Below are positions 1,115 to 59,092 of a DNA stretch of 64,000 bases, piece by piece. This stretch comes from Streptomyces katrae (GTDB taxonomy: Bacteria; Actinomycetota; Actinomycetes; Streptomycetales; Streptomycetaceae), in the NCBI RefSeq assembly GCF_002028425.1, contig NZ_CP020042.1, positions 5,493,560 to 5,557,559 of the forward strand. The letters are read 5' to 3'. The notes below the pieces were generated by a model that was given only the letters and a program-made list of their open reading frames with translations, was not told the origin of the DNA and made no database searches. Within the stretch, counting starts at the first letter, position 1, and each line of letters starts with the position of its first letter. The translations under genes were made by a program, and so were the position numbers.

Positions 1115-1798
1115 GTGAACAAGGCGCAGCTCGTAGAAGCGATTGCCGACAAGCTGGGCGGCCGCCAGCAGGCCGCCGACGCGGTCGACGCGGTACTGGA
1201 CGCGATGGTCCGCGCGGTCGTCGCGGGCGACCGGGTCTCGGTCACGGGCTTCGGCTCGTTCGAGAAGGTCGACCGCCCGGCCCGCTACGCCCGCAACCCG
1301 CAGACGGGTGAGCGCGTCCGGGTCAAGAAGACGTCCGTTCCCCGCTTCCGTGCGGGTCAGGGCTTCAAGGACCTGGTCAGCGGCACCAAGAAGCTCCCCA
1401 AGGGCGACGAGGTGGCCGTCAAGAAGGCCCCGAAGGGCAGCCTGACCGGCGGTGCCTCGGCCACGGTCAAGAAGGCCGCCGCCAAGAAGGCCACCACGGC
1501 CAAGAAGGCCGCCGCGAAGACCACGGCCACCAAGGCCGCCGCCAAGAAGACGACGGCGAAGAAGGCCGCCACGACCGTCAAGAAGACGGCCGCGAAGACC
1601 ACGGTCGCGAAGAAGGCCACGGCCACGGCCAAGAAGGCGACCCCGGCGAAGAAGGCCACGGCGGCGGCGAAGAAGACCACCGCCACCGCGAAGAAGACCG
1701 CCCCGGCGGCCAAGAAGGCCACCGCGACGAAGGCGCCCGCCAAGAAGACGGCGACGCGCAAGGCCACCGCGAAGAAGACCACCGCCCGCAAGAAGTAG
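1115..1798 (+). CDS. hupS: HU-family nucleoid protein with lysine-rich tail
   Basis: This 227-residue protein has an N-terminal HU fold (residues 1 to about 93) and a long basic C-terminal tail made of KKA, KKT and KKAT repeats. It therefore has the architecture of Streptomyces HupS, a spore-associated nucleoid protein, and of mycobacterial HupB. The HU domain shows the DNA-binding arm region with GFGSFEKV and RNPQTGE. The GTG at 1115 is chosen because MNKAQLVEAIADK is the family N-terminus and GAAGGGGA lies six bases upstream. The tail probably binds and compacts DNA, as in eukaryotic H1-like tails. A strong hairpin at 1818-1850 follows. The low-complexity tail opens long spurious frames on both strands. 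Confidence 0.95.
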   Translation: MNKAQLVEAIADKLGGRQQAADAVDAVLDAMVRAVVAGDRVSVTGFGSFEKVDRPARYARNPQTGERVRVKKTSVPRFRAGQGFKDLVSGTKKLPKGDEVAVKKAPKGSLTGGASATVKKAAAKKATTAKKAAAKTTATKAAAKKTTAKKAATTVKKTAAKTTVAKKATATAKKATPAKKATAAAKKTTATAKKTAPAAKKATATKAPAKKTATRKATAKKTTARKK

Positions 1799-1905: not shown

Positions 1906-2787
1906 CTAGAACGTCTGCAGGGTGACCAGGGTGATCCGCAGGCCGGCGCCCTCGCCGTCCGTCTCGATGCGCACCCGCTGCCCGGGACGCAGCATCAGCA
2001 GGCCGCCGGCGTCGAAGGCCTCGGCCCCGAAGGGCACCGGGGTGCCGTCGTCCAGCAGCACGCTGCCGCTGCGGGTCTGGGAGTCGTACGTGTACGCGGT
2101 CGCCTGCATAAGCGCACTGTATCGGGCCGTGTGCCGGCCCACGCCGAGGGAGAGGGCCCTGCGCAGGTCCGGTCCCGTGTCCACGTCCCGGCGCACGCTC
2201 TCGACGTCGGCCAGGGATATTTCCACCGCCCCCGAAGCGGAATGGCGGGCCCGGGACGGGCCGCCGAACGCGGGTGCCAATTCCACGTCCGGGCCGGCGG
2301 AAAGGAGCGTCGTCCCGATTCCCGCCGCATCCGCCAGAAATGCCCGGGGAAATGCGGAGGCGATATCGAGCACACGTAGCAATTCCGGCGGGCGCAGCGC
2401 GGGCAGGTCCGCGTTCATCGCGGCCAGCCGCGCCCCCGGCCGCCCCGCGCGCACGGCCCGCGCTCCGTGGTCCAGCGCGGCGTTGAGCCCCGCGCCCGGA
2501 GCGTCCGGCAGGATCCGCGCCCCGAGCCGGGCCAGTTCCGCCCCGGCCACCGCGTCGTCCGTGACGACCACCACATCCGCGACCGAAGCACAGGCCAGCG
2601 CCCCCGCCACCGTGTCCTGCGCGAAGGCCAGGGCCAGCCCCGGACGGGAAGCCCCCACGGCGGCCGCCAGCCGGCTCTTGGCCAGCGCCAGGGGTTTCAG
2701 CGGGACCACCAGGCTCCAGACGGCGTTCGTGGCGGACTCCTTCGCTCCGGTGCGCGGCCGCACCCGTCCCGGCCAAGGACGGGTCAC
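1906..2787 (-). CDS. cofC: CofC-type phospholactate/phosphoenolpyruvate guanylyltransferase fused to a cold-shock-like module
   Basis: The first 215 or so residues are CofC/FbiD, which activates the three-carbon side-chain precursor with GTP during coenzyme F420 synthesis. WSLVVPLKPLALAKSRL is the nucleotide-binding start of the family, and NADLPALRP and RRDVDT follow. CofC proteins normally end soon after this; here the frame continues without a stop into a roughly 67-residue module (ATAYTYDSQTRSG ... ITLVTLQTF) that looks like a cold-shock/S1-type beta barrel. The start is uncertain. GTG codons at 2787 and 2763 have no Shine-Dalgarno, whereas GAAGGAG lies six bases before an ACG at 2730 that matches the family N-terminus. 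The module may also start separately at the ATG at 2109, preceded by TACAGT at leaderless spacing. Confidence 0.85.
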   Translation of the reverse strand: MTRPWPGRVRPRTGAKESATNAVWSLVVPLKPLALAKSRLAAAVGASRPGLALAFAQDTVAGALACASVADVVVVTDDAVAGAELARLGARILPDAPGAGLNAALDHGARAVRAGRPGARLAAMNADLPALRPPELLRVLDIASAFPRAFLADAAGIGTTLLSAGPDVELAPAFGGPSRARHSASGAVEISLADVESVRRDVDTGPDLRRALSLGVGRHTARYSALMQATAYTYDSQTRSGSVLLDDGTPVPFGAEAFDAGGLLMLRPGQRVRIETDGEGAGLRITLVTLQTF

Positions 2788-2979
2788 GGCCCGGTCATCA
2801 GTCGGCCCATTGTCGCCTCAGACCGGCAGCAGGGGGGCCCGCCGGTCCGGGCGGGGCGTACGGTGTTCTCGACAGAGACCGGACGCGGGGCGACACTTGT
2901 CCGGCCCACGAGGTGCCGAGCTCCCCCAGCCACCGCTGGGAGGTGCCCCACGCCCCGGTCCTAGAGGAAGGTGCTCCGA

Positions 2980-3732
2980 GTGTCCCGCCGCAGAATCGGC
3001 TTCTGGTACCGCCTGGCGGCGGTCATCGCAAAACCGCCGCTGGTAGTGCTCTTCAAGCGGGACTGGCGGGGAATGGAGCACATTCCGGCCGACGGCGGAT
3101 TCATCACCGCCGTCAATCACAACTCGTATCTGGACCCGCTGTCCTACGCGCACTTCCAGTACAACACCGGCCGGGTGCCCCGGCTGCTCGCCAAGGCCGG
3201 GCTCTTCAAAGTGCCTTTCGTCGGCGCGATCCTCCGCGGATCGGGACAGATCCCCGTCTACCGCGAGACCACCAACGCCCTGGACGCGTTCCGGGCCGCC
3301 GTGGCCGCAGTCGAGCGCGGCGAATGCGTCGCGTTCTACCCCGAGGGCACCCTCACCCGCGACCCGGAGATGTGGCCGATGGCCGGCAAGAGCGGTGTCG
3401 CCCGCGTGGCGCTGATCACCCAGGCTCCCGTCATTCCGGTGGCCCAGTGGGGCGCCAACCTCGTGATGCCGCCGTACGCCAAGGAGAACAAGGTCCGCCT
3501 GTTCCCCCGCAAGACCCTCCAGGTCCTCGCGGGCCCGCCCGTGGACCTCTCGGCCTTCTACGGCAAGGAACCGACGCCGGAGGTCCTCAAGGGGGCCACC
3601 GAGGCGATCATGGCCGACATCACCCGGCTCCTGGAGGAGCTGCGCGGCGAGAAGGCCCCCGACCAGCCGTACGACCACCGCAAGGCCCGCGCGCAGCAGC
3701 GGCGCAAGGCCGCGGGGGAGGGTTCCAAGTGA
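2980..3732 (+). CDS. plsC: 1-acyl-sn-glycerol-3-phosphate acyltransferase
   Basis: This 250-residue membrane-associated enzyme is expected to acylate lysophosphatidic acid to phosphatidic acid. It contains the PlsC acyltransferase blocks: NHNSYLDP (the HX4D catalytic motif) near residue 46 and YPEGTLTRD around residue 122. The GTG at 2980 is preferred to the GTG at 2971 because GAGGAAG (2964-2970) is directly adjacent to the latter but nine bases from the former. The last codons overlap the gpsA start in a GTGA arrangement, so the two phospholipid genes are translationally coupled. The C-terminus is short and basic. Divergently placed cofC lies upstream. Confidence 0.92.
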   Translation: MSRRRIGFWYRLAAVIAKPPLVVLFKRDWRGMEHIPADGGFITAVNHNSYLDPLSYAHFQYNTGRVPRLLAKAGLFKVPFVGAILRGSGQIPVYRETTNALDAFRAAVAAVERGECVAFYPEGTLTRDPEMWPMAGKSGVARVALITQAPVIPVAQWGANLVMPPYAKENKVRLFPRKTLQVLAGPPVDLSAFYGKEPTPEVLKGATEAIMADITRLLEELRGEKAPDQPYDHRKARAQQRRKAAGEGSK

Positions 3733-4739
3733 CGCGTCCCGTCAAGGCAGCCGTCTTCTCCGCGGGCTCCTGGGGTACCGCCTTCGGCATGGTGCTGGCC
3801 GACGCGGGCTGCGAGGTCACCCTGTGGGCCCGCCGCCCGGAGGTCGCCGACGCCATCAACACCGGCCGCACCAACCCGGACTACTTCCCCGGCGTGGAGC
3901 TCCCCGCGAACCTGCGGGCGACCACCGACCCGGCCGAGGCCGCCCGCGGCGCGGACTTCACGGTGCTGTCCGTGCCCTCCCAGACCCTGCGCGGCAACCT
4001 CGCCGCCTGGGCCCCCCTGCTGGAGCCCGACACCGTCCTCGTCTCCCTGATGAAGGGCATCGAACTCGGCACCGCCAAGCGGATGAGCGAGGTCATCGAG
4101 GAGGTGGCCAAGGTCCCCGCCGAGCGCGTCGCCGTGGTCACCGGCCCCAACCTGGCCCGCGAGATCGTCGCCCGCCAGCCCGCCGCCTCCGTCGTCGCCT
4201 GCGTGGACGAGGCCGTGGCCCAGCGGCTCCAGGCCGCCTGCCACACCCCGTACTTCCGGCCGTACACCAGCACCGACGTCATCGGCTGCGAGCTCGGCGG
4301 CGCCGTCAAGAACGTCATCGGCCTCGCCGTCGGCATCGCCGACGGCATGGGCCTGGGCGACAACACCAAGGGCTCGCTCATCACCCGGGGCCTGGCCGAA
4401 GCCACCCGTCTGGGCCTGGCGATGGGCGCCGACCCGCTCACCTTCTCCGGCCTCGCGGGCCTCGGCGACCTCGTCGCCACCTGCTCCTCGCCGCTCTCCC
4501 GCAACCACACGTTCGGCACGAACCTGGGCCGCGGGATGACCCTGGAGGAGACCATCGCGGTCACCAAGCAGACCGCCGAGGGGGTCAAGTCCTGCCAGTC
4601 CGTGGCGGATCTGGCCCGCCGCCACGGAGTGGACATGCCGATCACCGACACGGTCGTCGACATCGTCCACCACGGCAAGCCCACGCTGGTCGCGCTGAAG
4701 GAACTCATGGGCCGCAGCGCCAAACCGGAACGACACTGA
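3729..4739 (+). CDS. gpsA: glycerol-3-phosphate dehydrogenase [NAD(P)+]
   Basis: This 336-residue cytosolic enzyme reduces dihydroxyacetone phosphate to glycerol-3-phosphate, the backbone for phospholipids, and so supplies the pathway served by the adjacent plsC. The Rossmann motif reads AGSWGTAF near the N-terminus (SAGSWGT rather than the more usual GAGSWGT), and the catalytic region GAVKNVIGLAVGIADG with GDNTKGSLITRG is intact. The GTG at 3729 overlaps the plsC stop by four bases and follows GGGAG at a workable distance. Length is normal. Stop-to-start distance to ddlA is 39 bases, so read-through into ddlA is possible. Confidence 0.95.
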   Translation: MTRPVKAAVFSAGSWGTAFGMVLADAGCEVTLWARRPEVADAINTGRTNPDYFPGVELPANLRATTDPAEAARGADFTVLSVPSQTLRGNLAAWAPLLEPDTVLVSLMKGIELGTAKRMSEVIEEVAKVPAERVAVVTGPNLAREIVARQPAASVVACVDEAVAQRLQAACHTPYFRPYTSTDVIGCELGGAVKNVIGLAVGIADGMGLGDNTKGSLITRGLAEATRLGLAMGADPLTFSGLAGLGDLVATCSSPLSRNHTFGTNLGRGMTLEETIAVTKQTAEGVKSCQSVADLARRHGVDMPITDTVVDIVHHGKPTLVALKELMGRSAKPERH

Positions 4740-21663: not shown

Positions 21664-24600
21664 GTGCACCTCAAGTCCCTGACCCTGCGCGGCTTCAAAT
21701 CCTTCGCCTCCGCCACCACCCTCCGCTTCGAGCCGGGCATCACCTGTGTCGTGGGCCCCAACGGTTCGGGCAAGTCCAACGTGGTGGACGCGCTGTCCTG
21801 GGTCATGGGGGAGCAGGGGGCCAAGTCCCTGCGCGGCGGCAAGATGGAAGACGTCATCTTCGCCGGCACCACGGGCCGGCCGCCCCTCGGCCGCGCCGAG
21901 GTCTCCCTCACCATCGACAACTCCGACGGCGCCCTGCCGATCGAGTACGCCGAGGTCACCATCACGCGGATCATGTTCCGCGGCGGCAGCAGCGAGTACC
22001 AGATCAACGGGGACACCTGCCGGCTCCTCGACATCCAGGAACTCCTCTCCGACTCCGGCATCGGCCGCGAGATGCACGTCATCGTCGGCCAGGGCCAGCT
22101 CGACTCCGTCCTGCACGCGGACCCGATGGGCCGCCGCGCCTTCATCGAGGAGGCCGCCGGCGTACTGAAGCACCGCAAGCGCAAGGAGAAGGCGCTGCGC
22201 AAGCTCGACGCGATGCAGGCCAACCTCGCGCGGGTGCAGGACCTCGCCGACGAGCTGCGCCGGCAGCTCAAGCCCCTGGGACGGCAGGCGGCGGTGGCCC
22301 GGCGGGCCGCCGTCATCCAGGCGGACCTGCGCGACGCCCGGCTGCGGCTGCTCGCCGACGACCTGGTCGCGCTGCGGGCCGCGCTGGACGCCGAGATCGC
22401 CGACGAGGCGGCCCTGAAGGAACGCAAGGAATCGGCCGAACGGGACCTCGCGGAGGCGCTGCGCCGTGAGGCCGCGCTGGAGGAATCGGTACGGCGCCTC
22501 GCGCCCCGGCTCCAGCGGGCCCAGCAGACCTGGCACGAGCTCGCGCAGCTGGCCGAGCGGGTGCGCGGCACCGAGTCCCTGGCCCTGGCACGGGTCAAGA
22601 GCGCGTCGGCGCCGGTGGAGGAGGAGCGGCGCGGCCGTGACCCGGAGGACATGGAGCGGGAGGCCGCGCGGATCCGGGAGCAGGAGGCGGAGCTGACCGC
22701 CGCGCTCGAAGCCTCCGAACGGGCGCTGGAGGACACCGCCGCGCACCGGGCCGAGCTGGAGCGGGCCCTCGCGCAGGAGGAGCGGCGGCTGCGGGACGCC
22801 GCGCGGGCCGTCGCCGACCGGCGCGAGGAACTGGCCCGGCTGACCGGGCGCCTGGGCGCGGCCCGCTCCCGGGCGGGGGCGGCGCAGTCGGAGATCGACC
22901 GGCTCGTGGCGGCCCGGGACGGGGCACGGGTGCGGGCCGAGGAGGCCCGGGAGGAGTACGAGGCACTGGCCGAGGAGGTCGGCGGGCTGGAGGAGACCTC
23001 CTCGGACGAGGGGGAGTACGAGGCCGCGCGGGCCGGGCTGGAGGAGGCGGAGGCCGCCCTGGCGGCGGCCCGGGAGGCCCGGACCTCGGCCGAACGGTCC
23101 CACGCGGCGGTCTCGGCACGGCGGGACGCGCTCGCACTGGGGCTACGGCGCAAGGACGGCACCGGGGCGCTGCTCGCGGTGCGGGAGCGGCTGGAGGGGG
23201 TGCTGGGGCCGGCGGCGGAGCGGGTGTCGGTCGAGGCGGGGTACGAGGTGGCGGTGGCCGCGGCCCTCGGCTCCGCCGCGGATGCGGTGGCCGTGGCCTC
23301 GGCGGGGGCGGCGGCCGGGGCCATCCGGCACCTGCGGGAAGCCGACGCGGGCCGGGCCACGTTCCTGATCGCCCCGGCCCCGGCCCCGGGCTCCACCCCG
23401 GCCCCGGGTTCCGGCCCGGCCCCGGTCCCGGGCTCCACCCCGGCCCCGGCCTCGGGTTCCGGCCCGGTCCCGGCCGTGGTGCCGGAGCAGGTTCCGGGTT
23501 CGGGTTCCGGTCCGGCCCCGGTCGTGGTTCCAGGGCAGGCGCCGGGACCGGACGGCGTTGCCACGGACGGTGCCGGCCTGCCCGGGCAGGCCCAGGGGCC
23601 GGAGGACTTCCCCCACCCCGCCCCTTCCCGAAACTGGGGCTCCGCCCCAGACCCCGCGCCTCAAACGCCGGCGGGGCTGGAAGTGCGGGGCTCCGCCCCA
23701 GACCCCGCGCCTCAAACGCCGGCGGGGCTGGATGTGCGGGGCTCTGCCCCGGGCCCGGCGCCTCAGATGCCGGCGGGGCTGGATGTGCGGGGCTCTGCCC
23801 CGGGCCCGGCGCCTCAAACGCCGGCGGGGCTGGATGTGCGGGGCTCTGCCCCGGGCCCGGCGCCTCAAACGCCGGCGGGGCTGGATGTGCGGGGCTCTGC
23901 CCCGGGCCCGGCGCCTCAGATGCCGGCGGGGCTGGATGTGCGGGGCTCTGCCCCGGGTCCGGCTCAAACGCCGGCGGGGCCGGATGTGCCGGGCTTGGTG
24001 GCTGGTGCCGGGTCTCGCGGGGCCTCCGGGGTTGTCGAGGTGGCGTACCGCGAGGCCGCCGGGCTGGTGCGCGGGGATGCCGAGGTCGTGCGGGCCGTCG
24101 CGTGGGTGCTGCGGGGGTATGTGGTCGTCGGGACCTTGGCGGAGGCTGAGGGTGTCGTCGCCGAGCGGCCCGAGCTGGTCGCCGTGACCGCCGAGGGGGA
24201 CGTGCTCGGGGCGCACCTCGCGCACGGGGGGTCCGCCGGGGTGCCCAGTCTCATCGAGGTGCAGGCCGCCGTGGACGAGGCCGGCGCGGAGCTGGAGCGG
24301 CTGGAGCTGGAGTGCCGGGAGTCGGCCGCGCGGGAGGAGGCCGCCCGGGTGCGGCGGGCCGGCGCCGCGGCCCGCGTCGAGGAGCTGGCCGAGCTGCGCC
24401 GGGCCGGGGAGCAGGCCCGGGCCGGGGCGGCGCAGCAGCTCGGGCGGCTCGCCGGGCAGGCGAAGGCGGCCCTGGGCGAGGCCGAGCGCGGCGCCCTGGC
24501 CGTGGCCACCGCCGAGGAGGCCCTGGAGCGCGCACGGGTCGACGTAGAGGAGTGCGCGGAGCGGCTCGCGGCCGTGGAGGAGATGCCGGTCGCGGAGGAA

Positions 24601-25845
24601 CCCGACACCTCCGCCCGGGACCGGCTCGCCGCCGACGGGGCCAACGCACGGCAGACCGAGATGGAAGCCCGGCTCCAGCTGCGTACCCACGAGGAGCGGG
24701 TCAAGGGCCTCGCGGGCAGGGCGGACGCCCTCGACCGGGGGGCCCGCGCCGAACGGGAGGCGCGGGCGCGAGCCGAGCGGCGCCGCCGGCGGATGCGGCA
24801 CGAGGCCGAGGTCGCCCGGGCCGTCGCCGACGGGGCCCGGCAGCTGCTGGCGCACCTGGAGGTGTCCGTCGCCCGGGCGGAGCGGGAGCGTACGGCCGCC
24901 GACGAGGCCAAGGCGGTGCGTGAGCGGGAGCTCGGGGAGGCCCGTGGCCTGGGCCGCGACCTCAAGGGCGAGCTCGACAAGCTGACCGACTCCGTGCACC
25001 GGGGCGAAGTGCTCGGCGCCGAGAAGCGGCTGCGCATCGAGCAGCTGGAGACCCGCGCCCTGGAGGAGCTGGGCGTGGAGCCGGCGGCGCTGGTGGCGGA
25101 GTACGGGCCCGACCAGCCGGTCCCCCCGTCCCCGCCCGCCGAGGGCGAGGAGCTTCCGGAGGACCCCGACCACCCCCGCAACCGCCCCGGCCCCTTCGAC
25201 CGGGCCCGGCAGGAGAAGCGGCTCAAGGCGGCCGAGCGCGCCTACCAGCAGCTCGGCAAGGTCAACCCGCTCGCGCTGGAGGAGTTCGCCGCCCTGGAGG
25301 AGCGCCACCGGTTCCTCAGTGAGCAGCTGGAGGACCTGAGGAAGACGCGCGCCGACCTCCTTCAAGTGGTGAAGGAAGTAGACCAGCGGGTCGAGCAGGT
25401 CTTCACCGAGGCCTACCGGGACACCGCCCGTGAGTTCGAGGGGGTGTTCTCGCGGCTGTTCCCCGGCGGCGAGGGGCGCCTGGTGCTCACCGACCCGGAG
25501 AACATGCTGGCCACCGGCGTGGACGTCGAGGCCCGGCCGCCCGGCAAGAAGGTCAAGCGGCTGTCCCTGCTCTCCGGCGGCGAGCGGTCCCTGACGGCCG
25601 TGGCGCTGCTGGTCTCCATCTTCAAGGCGCGCCCCAGCCCGTTCTACGTGATGGACGAGGTCGAGGCCGCGCTGGACGACACCAACTTGCAGCGGCTGAT
25701 CCGGATCATGGAGGAGCTCCAGGAGAGCTCCCAGCTGATCGTCATCACCCACCAGAAGCGGACCATGGAGGTCGCGGACGCCCTCTACGGCGTGTCGATG
25801 CAGGGCGACGGGGTGTCGAAGGTGATCAGCCAGCGTCTCCGCTGA
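21664..25845 (+). CDS. smc: chromosome segregation protein SMC with enlarged hinge
   Basis: This 1393-residue ATPase is the core of the SMC-ScpAB condensin that organises and segregates chromosomes. It has Walker A GPNGSGKS (residues 31-38), long coiled coils, the ABC signature LSLLSGGERSL (1300-1310) and Walker B with VMDEVEAALDD near 1330. Streptomyces SMC is usually near 1190 residues; the excess is a block of about 218 residues (roughly 571-788) inserted in the hinge between RATFLIAP and VVEVAYREAAG. The block is Pro/Gly/Ala-rich, and its second half is seven tandem 17-residue repeats. Both hinge halves look intact. The GTG at 21664 has TAGAGT eight bases upstream and no Shine-Dalgarno, so a near-leaderless start is possible. 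Confidence 0.95.
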   Translation: MHLKSLTLRGFKSFASATTLRFEPGITCVVGPNGSGKSNVVDALSWVMGEQGAKSLRGGKMEDVIFAGTTGRPPLGRAEVSLTIDNSDGALPIEYAEVTITRIMFRGGSSEYQINGDTCRLLDIQELLSDSGIGREMHVIVGQGQLDSVLHADPMGRRAFIEEAAGVLKHRKRKEKALRKLDAMQANLARVQDLADELRRQLKPLGRQAAVARRAAVIQADLRDARLRLLADDLVALRAALDAEIADEAALKERKESAERDLAEALRREAALEESVRRLAPRLQRAQQTWHELAQLAERVRGTESLALARVKSASAPVEEERRGRDPEDMEREAARIREQEAELTAALEASERALEDTAAHRAELERALAQEERRLRDAARAVADRREELARLTGRLGAARSRAGAAQSEIDRLVAARDGARVRAEEAREEYEALAEEVGGLEETSSDEGEYEAARAGLEEAEAALAAAREARTSAERSHAAVSARRDALALGLRRKDGTGALLAVRERLEGVLGPAAERVSVEAGYEVAVAAALGSAADAVAVASAGAAAGAIRHLREADAGRATFLIAPAPAPGSTPAPGSGPAPVPGSTPAPASGSGPVPAVVPEQVPGSGSGPAPVVVPGQAPGPDGVATDGAGLPGQAQGPEDFPHPAPSRNWGSAPDPAPQTPAGLEVRGSAPDPAPQTPAGLDVRGSAPGPAPQMPAGLDVRGSAPGPAPQTPAGLDVRGSAPGPAPQTPAGLDVRGSAPGPAPQMPAGLDVRGSAPGPAQTPAGPDVPGLVAGAGSRGASGVVEVAYREAAGLVRGDAEVVRAVAWVLRGYVVVGTLAEAEGVVAERPELVAVTAEGDVLGAHLAHGGSAGVPSLIEVQAAVDEAGAELERLELECRESAAREEAARVRRAGAAARVEELAELRRAGEQARAGAAQQLGRLAGQAKAALGEAERGALAVATAEEALERARVDVEECAERLAAVEEMPVAEEPDTSARDRLAADGANARQTEMEARLQLRTHEERVKGLAGRADALDRGARAEREARARAERRRRRMRHEAEVARAVADGARQLLAHLEVSVARAERERTAADEAKAVRERELGEARGLGRDLKGELDKLTDSVHRGEVLGAEKRLRIEQLETRALEELGVEPAALVAEYGPDQPVPPSPPAEGEELPEDPDHPRNRPGPFDRARQEKRLKAAERAYQQLGKVNPLALEEFAALEERHRFLSEQLEDLRKTRADLLQVVKEVDQRVEQVFTEAYRDTAREFEGVFSRLFPGGEGRLVLTDPENMLATGVDVEARPPGKKVKRLSLLSGGERSLTAVALLVSIFKARPSPFYVMDEVEAALDDTNLQRLIRIMEELQESSQLIVITHQKRTMEVADALYGVSMQGDGVSKVISQRLR
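23636..23989 (+). repeat. seven tandem copies of a 51-bp unit inside smc
   Basis: Units begin GGGGCTC at 23636, 23687, 23738, 23789, 23840, 23891 and 23942; the first six are 51 bp and the last 48 bp. Each encodes a 17-residue unit such as GLDVRGSAPGPAPQTPA. Copies 1-2 carry CCGCCCCAGACCCCGC and copies 3-7 carry CTGCCCCGGGC, which shows stepwise duplication. The unit resembles the intergenic repeat at 38473-38499. Confidence 0.92.
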
Positions 25846-58031: not shown

Positions 58032-58213
58032 GGGCGTCACCCGGCATACCGCCGGGTCCCGTACACTTCTTGTGGCGATCCGGGTCACCGGGTCGACTTC
58101 GCACGCCCCAGCGCCGACCGGTTCCGGTCGGGTGGCAGCGCCTCTCGGTCCCTTCATGGGGCAGGGCGCGGCGGGGCGTCAGGAACCAAAACCGAGAAAC
58201 CAAGGAGATGGCC

Positions 58214-59092
58214 ATGGCCGTCGTAACGATGCGGGAGCTGCTGGAGAGCGGCGTCCACTTCGGTCACCAGACCCGTCGCTGGAACCCGAAGATGAAGCGC
58301 TTCATCTTCACCGAGCGCAACGGCATCTACATCATCGACCTGCTCCAGTCGCTGTCGTACATCGACCGCGCCTACGAGTTCGTGAAGGAGACCGTCGCGC
58401 ACGGCGGTTCCATCATGTTCGTCGGTACGAAGAAGCAGGCGCAGGAGGCCATCGCCGAGCAGGCGACCCGCGTCGGCATGCCGTACGTCAACCAGCGCTG
58501 GCTGGGTGGCATGCTCACCAACTTCTCGACCGTCTACAAGCGCCTTCAGCGTCTGAAGGAGCTCGAGGCGATCGACTTCGAGGACGTCGCGGCCTCGGGT
58601 CTCACCAAGAAGGAGCTCCTGGTCCTCTCCCGCGAGAAGGCCAAGCTGGAGAAGACCCTCGGTGGTATCCGCGAGATGTCGAAGGTTCCCAGCGCCGTCT
58701 GGATCGTCGACACCAAGAAGGAGCACATCGCCGTCGGTGAGGCGCGCAAGCTGCACATCCCGGTCGTCGCGATCCTCGACACCAACTGCGACCCCGACGA
58801 GGTCGACTACAAGATCCCGGGCAACGACGACGCCATCCGCTCCGTCACCCTGCTCACCCGCGTGATCGCCGACGCCGTCGCCGAGGGCCTCATCGCCCGT
58901 TCCGGCGCTGCGACCGGTGACTCGAAGCCGGGCGAGAAGGCCGCCGCCGAGCCGCTCGCCGAGTGGGAGCGCGACCTGCTCGAGGGCGAGAAGAAGGCTG
59001 ACGCCGAGGCCCCCGTGGCCGAGGCCCCGGCTGCCGAGGCCCCCGCGGCCGAGGCTCCCGCTGCCGAGGCTCCGGCCGCCGAGCAGGCCTGA
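58214..59092 (+). CDS. rpsB: 30S ribosomal protein S2
   Basis: This 292-residue protein starts [25 protein letters not shown] and has [15 protein letters not shown] and [22 protein letters not shown], the S2 signatures. The ATG at 58214 is preferred because AAGGAG directly touches the ATG at 58208. The C-terminus is an Ala/Glu/Pro tail with EAPAA repeats (residues 267-290), longer than in E. coli. A possible -10 TACACT occurs at 58062-58067, giving a leader of about 140 bases. Two hairpins separate it from tsf. Confidence 0.96.

Follow-up and report, generated by a model that had tools for sequence, protein, structure and literature searches.

Two unrelated dispersed repeats in the hinge linker of Streptomyces SMC

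The chromosome segregation ATPase SMC of Streptomyces katrae is encoded in a stretch of 64,000 nucleotides of contig NZ_CP020042.1 (positions 5,493,560 to 5,557,559 of the forward strand; here referred to as the window, to which coordinates refer unless a locus is named). The two halves of its hinge are separated by a long linker rich in proline, glycine and alanine, and this linker contains a tandem array of a short repeat, E1, that is dispersed over the genome and lies mostly between genes. In a separate Streptomyces clade the same linker contains an unrelated dispersed repeat, E2, and both repeats are also found in frame in other genes. The features of the locus are as follows:

21664..25845 (+): smc, chromosome segregation ATPase, 1393 aa, stop-free open frame, TIGR02168
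23194..23391 (+): hinge, first half (PF06470, residues 511-576), from Pfam; folded in prediction
23374..24042 (+): hypervariable hinge linker, 223 aa, Pro/Gly/Ala-rich, predicted disordered
23374..23609 (+): pre-element block, Pro/Gly-rich, with short irregular repeats of its own, from Tandem Repeats Finder (TRF) and reading
23610..23635 (+): left part of the dispersed element E1 (CCCCCACCCCGCCCCTTCCCGAAACT), 26 bp
23636..23989 (+): seven tandem E1 units, 6 x 51 bp then 48 bp, from TRF and unit alignment
24043..24273 (+): hinge, second half, the flank that delimits the loop; folded in prediction

The smc product scores 895.5 bits against the TIGR02168 SMC equivalog model, above the cut-off of 567.35, and GPNGSGKS, LSGGERSL and DEVEAALDD, which we take to be the SMC ATPase motifs, are read in its translation. 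Pfam covers the hinge in its first part alone (residues 511-576). A first-pass annotation of this stretch had described a frame running unbroken through a hinge insertion of about 218 residues with seven tandem units, and this description was borne out: no stop occurs in 21664-25845 (+), 218 residues lie between GRATFLIAP and VVEVAYREAAG (223 aa when the loop is delimited by its aligned flanks), and the seven units (6 x 51 bp, 1 x 48 bp) occupy 23636-23989. For the array, TRF gave a period of 51, 7.1 copies and 93% matches over 23636-23995 (score 587). Two pairs of units, 4 with 5 and 3 with 6, match letter for letter, which suggests that they were duplicated recently. An example of a peptide from the predicted loop translation is GSAPGPAPQTPAGLDVR. 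The insertion is thus real and in frame; what had been missed is that its unit is not smc sequence but a repeat that is dispersed over the genome.

In the 8.06-Mb genome the E1 core GCCTCAAACGCCGGCGGGGCTGGA is matched 64 times at up to three mismatches; smc accounts for 7 of these matches and the rest of the genome for 57. A reversed-core control at the same threshold gave zero matches in this genome. When core matches and blast places were combined, 52 places outside smc were obtained, of which 44 were classed as intergenic, 6 as gene edge and 2 as inside genes by a test that combines whole open reading frames (ORFs) with codon usage; the same test classed 2000 random window stretches as 510 intergenic, 428 edge and 1062 coding. 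At four loci (L131, L136, L139 and L149) it was the midpoint of the stretch that was scored and not the element itself, and the elements at L136 were later confirmed to be in frame. An earlier version of the test with 150-nt flanks, which called 0 of the 52 places coding and put smc on the wrong strand, was replaced by the whole-ORF version. Many E1 copies are arranged as head-to-head pairs, and among the stretches folded, two such intergenic pairs were the only ones to form structures far more stable than those of their shuffles (z -9.45 and -7.23).

Both repeats were searched for within genomes of the genus Streptomyces. E1 has a match at up to two mismatches in 49 of the 81 genomes, often only to a variant ending CTCC / GGAG, and the reversed pattern gave 1 match in the whole set. 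The eight genomes with the most matches (from 200 down to 36, with 62 in the genome of the window) all belong to the clade of the window, in which one further genome (G071) has a count of 1. A 53-bp stretch that runs from the left part of E1 into unit 1 is matched without mismatch at two places in genome G074, one of which is the smc loop of that genome. Outside smc, E1 copies in genome G039 are spaced by 51 bp at at least 3 places among the matches listed, and by 31 or 52 bp elsewhere; since this spacing occurs outside smc as well, a period of 51 bp seems to belong to E1 itself and not to be imposed by the reading frame. That 51 is a multiple of three would be what allowed the array to grow inside smc.

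Copy number differs between closely related SMC proteins. The nearest protein, P0001 (1342 aa), shows no substitution and lacks 51 aa, i.e., exactly three units, whereas P0002 differs from the window SMC by 8 substitutions and 31 gap columns; tandem units of like kind are present in P0002, P0006, P0009 and others. That gain or loss of whole units keeps the frame, as had been proposed from the sequence alone, agrees with the difference of three 51-bp units in P0001, although a collapsed P0001 assembly is possible, and the sequences are consistent with E1 copies that come and go between near-identical strains.

The capture of E1 in a coding frame is not peculiar to smc. The two places outside smc that were classed as inside genes in the genome of the window lie in hemA and in an acyl-CoA carboxylase alpha gene (names read from the translations). 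In the carboxylase gene (L136, 1469-1840), two E1 copies of opposite orientation are both in frame and lie between domains, and in hemA (glutamyl-tRNA reductase, L137) E1 is part of an insert in 8 of the 10 loci that belong to the clade of the window and in 0 of 20 other loci, the 30 best loci among 80 matching genomes being examined. E2 is likewise in frame in three genes of genomes G009 and G011, namely a baseplate-like gene, an RNase H/phosphatase fusion and a phosphoribosyltransferase-like gene (named by reading; loci L240, L262 and L265/L268).

E2 (AGGGGCGCGGGGAACTGCGCGACCAGCC) is unrelated to E1 and is translated in loops such as RGAGNCATSHNEPADA. It is present in 43 of the 81 genomes with up to 519 copies, and its reversed-pattern control gave 0 matches. 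The first ten exact matches in each of three genomes, 30 of 182 E2 matches in all, comprise 21 places classed as intergenic, 5 classed as edge and 4 classed as coding, the latter in three genes; the copy in the smc loop of G009 has one mismatch to the pattern. An element was called in a loop when its score was at least 36 and above all 100 codon shuffles of that loop, and this was the case in 19 of 138 distinct loops (3 with E1, 16 with E2), 17 of which score 48-137. In the smc sequence around the loop (up to 2.25 kb), neither repeat was found at any of the 138 loci. By eye, the loop of G046 can also be read as E1, and possible remnants are seen in the loops of G039 and G012. Because E1 and E2 are different repeats, at least two acquisitions at the loop are required. 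A tree of 134 of the 138 SMC rows, built by a quick method, places the E1 carriers within a clade of 10 rows (support 99) and the E2 carriers in a group of 40 rows (support 82) within a clade of 52 (support 100), with 3 state changes for E1 and 6-7 for E2, in which gains and losses count alike.

The site itself is a normal one for the genus. When each Streptomyces genome was counted once, the loop was 11-330 aa long in 72 genomes (median 43.5; the window is the third longest). These are 72 of 79 smc-matching genomes, with G028, G050, G002 and the loci L058, L078, L125 and L126 left out, and a search for relatives of the window strain gave none nearer than the genus sample. In a wider set of 138 distinct loops (156 loci minus 12 that failed and 6 duplicates), the 121 Streptomyces rows have a median loop of 31 aa and the 17 other actinobacterial rows have loops of 9-21 aa. 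Loops entered this wider set only with both flanks in one frame, so its lengths do not show the frequency of frame-breaking loops. The expectation that SMC hinges normally have no such insertion therefore fails for Streptomyces: comparison of SMC across the genus showed a variable loop to be normal there and gave no support for the view that a hinge insertion is abnormal. The window SMC is indeed long, but the length that the first-pass annotation had called usual for Streptomyces SMC, some 200 residues less, is not a fixed one, since the loop varies so widely. Related genomes do share the block as a site, though not the E1 sequence in it. As a loop of variable length is a trait of the genus, the hinge site is not abnormal, and what differs is its filling.

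In the AlphaFold prediction the hinge fold is intact on both sides of the 223-aa loop, which is disordered. Comparison with PDB structures (VIA-align 2) matched the fold on both sides of the loop to the bacterial SMC hinges 5h69, 1gxj, 1gxl and 3nwc; 5h69 has about 29 residues separating the two stretches that align, in contrast to the disordered linker of 223 aa. The insertion had been thought either to affect condensin function or to be tolerated, and because the fold is predicted to be intact with a disordered loop, tolerance fits better. The outcome would be an intact hinge that carries a disordered tether, most likely with a neutral or nearly neutral effect.

Taken together, it is considered probable (roughly 0.8) that a tolerant linker took up extragenic repeats in frame and that these then expanded by unit-wise duplication. 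This account builds on the calculated dispersal and intergenic bias of the repeats, the genes that carry them in frame, the two families at one site, the copy-number difference and the predicted fold; from these we infer the direction from intergenic to coding sequence, the age and number of the insertions, the mechanism of insertion and expansion and the neutrality of the tether. The linker between the two hinge half-domains would be a naturally tolerant site, into which an extragenic E1 copy may have inserted in the lineage of the window. Because E1 is GC-rich and has few stop codons, it would have been translated rather than have inactivated smc. The 51-bp core may then have been duplicated in tandem, with each gain or loss of a unit preserving the frame since 51 is divisible by three, and in a separate Streptomyces clade the unrelated extragenic E2 would have entered the same linker.

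Several observations weigh against this account. The gene-or-spacer test is blunt, as the copy in the smc loop of G074 (L238), which is known to be in frame, came out as intergenic, so that some of the 44 intergenic E1 places may be coding. The two lowest element scores in the loops are 42 and 40, and shuffles of other loops reach 47. All 19 loop copies share one orientation, which is the pattern of few old inherited insertions and not of many new ones, and E2 is recognisable across its whole clade, which could mean constraint. Recognisable elements are lacking in 119 of the 138 loops, where other loop-building processes are also at work. For single smc units, the predicted folding does not surpass that of shuffled sequences (z -0.13 and 0.55; -1.59 for the G074 copy). 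Lastly, a Y1 (RAYT-type) transposase (PF01797) had 0 matches in the window genome, with 5 of 14 control genomes positive. Mobilisation of E1 by such a transposase of this genome was rejected on that basis.

Among the alternatives, the loop could be functional, i.e., a disordered tether selected for hinge opening, partner binding or condensates, for which the repeats are cheap raw material. Loops of more than 30 aa in 62 of the 121 Streptomyces rows as against 0 of the 17 other actinobacterial rows speak for it, but close relatives differ in loop length and sequence, many species manage with 11-20 aa, and the loop of the window has a net charge of -7, which gives no sign of DNA binding, so this alternative is judged unlikely. 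More speculative, and doubtful at present, is the idea that extragenic repeats land time and again in the hinge linker, which would give condensin a tether of variable length, with copy numbers that shift between strains and tune the hinge, and would place recombination points in smc, the divided gene of genome G012 then being a natural split SMC.

A role of the repeats as RNA or DNA, whereby hairpins in the smc message would slow translation or set mRNA stability in a REP-like manner, draws on the strong folding of the two intergenic head-to-head pairs, yet the smc units lie head to tail and the two that were folded do no better than their shuffles, which makes such a role very improbable; a hairpin formed by an smc unit was rejected on the same grounds. 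About as improbable is an assembly artefact in the array or its copy number: P0001, identical save for three units, makes a collapsed or expanded array conceivable and smc of G046 is split across contigs near the loop, but the window lies in a contig of 7.5 Mb and P0002, P0006, P0009 and further proteins share such tandem units. The least probable alternative, replication slippage of GC-rich codons alone with a merely compositional likeness to intergenic repeats, could appeal to the short irregular repeats of block 23374-23609 and to the loops that hold no recognised element, but is opposed by the 19 loops that beat all their own shuffles (17 of them at 48-137), by the exact 53-bp match that ties the G074 loop to another place in that genome and by the reversed-pattern controls of 0 (E2) and 1 (E1) in 81 genomes.

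Some further observations concern the locus and its surroundings. In G012, smc consists of two open halves (L154, ~2030-4200, and L272) that lie ~2.56 Mb apart on opposite strands of one contig, and the break falls in the hinge loop, through rearrangement or misassembly. Assembly breaks or N runs at or near the smc hinge loop are also seen in G010 (L273), G046 (L126, L271) and G039 (L270). In the window, frames read by eye from the translation as RNase III, MutM and acylphosphatase neighbour smc, and a sugar transporter frame follows it. Tandem repeats of other kinds occur in an ORF for an HU-like protein (1115-1798; Lys/Ala-rich repeats in its tail, window 1461-1792) and at the end of an ORF named by reading as ribosomal protein S2-like (58208-59092; a 15-bp repeat at 59003-59083).

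In-frame capture followed by unit-wise duplication suggests how a chromosome-folding protein may absorb repetitive spacer DNA while its frame and fold are kept. Within the genus, SMC hinges form a natural series whose linkers span 11-330 aa, with and without repeats, and since Streptomyces can be engineered, the load that a hinge tolerates is directly testable. It also follows as a warning that Pro/Gly-rich inserts in Streptomyces proteins, e.g., HemA, the carboxylase and the RNase H fusion, can turn out to be repeats that are translated instead of domains.

REP and REPIN sequences with their RAYT transposases are short GC-rich repeats that are mostly intergenic and often form inverted pairs. 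E1 resembles them in all four respects, but the genome of the window has no Y1 transposase match, and E1 is here part of coding sequence. Closer in behaviour, though not compared in sequence, are the Rickettsia palindromic elements (RPE), which, according to the available extracts of the papers cited in this paragraph, are short repeats that lie between genes and, in frame and translated, within conserved genes (PMC2229807, PMC3733652, PMC10969869). RPE belong to another phylum, measure ~105-150 bp and occur as single inserts, whereas E1 has a 51-bp core that is repeated in tandem, and two unrelated repeats here share one site in a gene. PARCEL units are tandem palindromic coding units of variable copy number (PMC2996958) and in this resemble the smc array; they differ in forming an amphipathic motif of 25 residues, in ORFs that have no assigned function, in place of a disordered linker in a conserved housekeeping protein. 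ERIC and the Yersinia palindromic sequence are small mobile repeats that have become joined in frame with conserved genes (PMC2229807), but are enterobacterial and longer (127 and ~168 bp), and no tandem arrays are described for them in the extracts. Wolbachia and an archaeon are likewise cited as having palindromic inserts in frame (PMC2996958). Neither in-frame capture nor tandem growth is therefore new alone, given the precedents of RPE, the Wolbachia and archaeal inserts and PARCEL. In the portion of the open-licence literature that was available, no description was found of these repeats, of in-frame repeats in Streptomyces genes or of the Streptomyces hinge loop, nor of the meeting of both processes in an SMC hinge, in actinobacteria, at one site and with two repeat families. 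By analogy, capture with unit-wise gain and loss would work much as in RPE, here in actinobacteria and with tandem growth at a site that has been used more than once.
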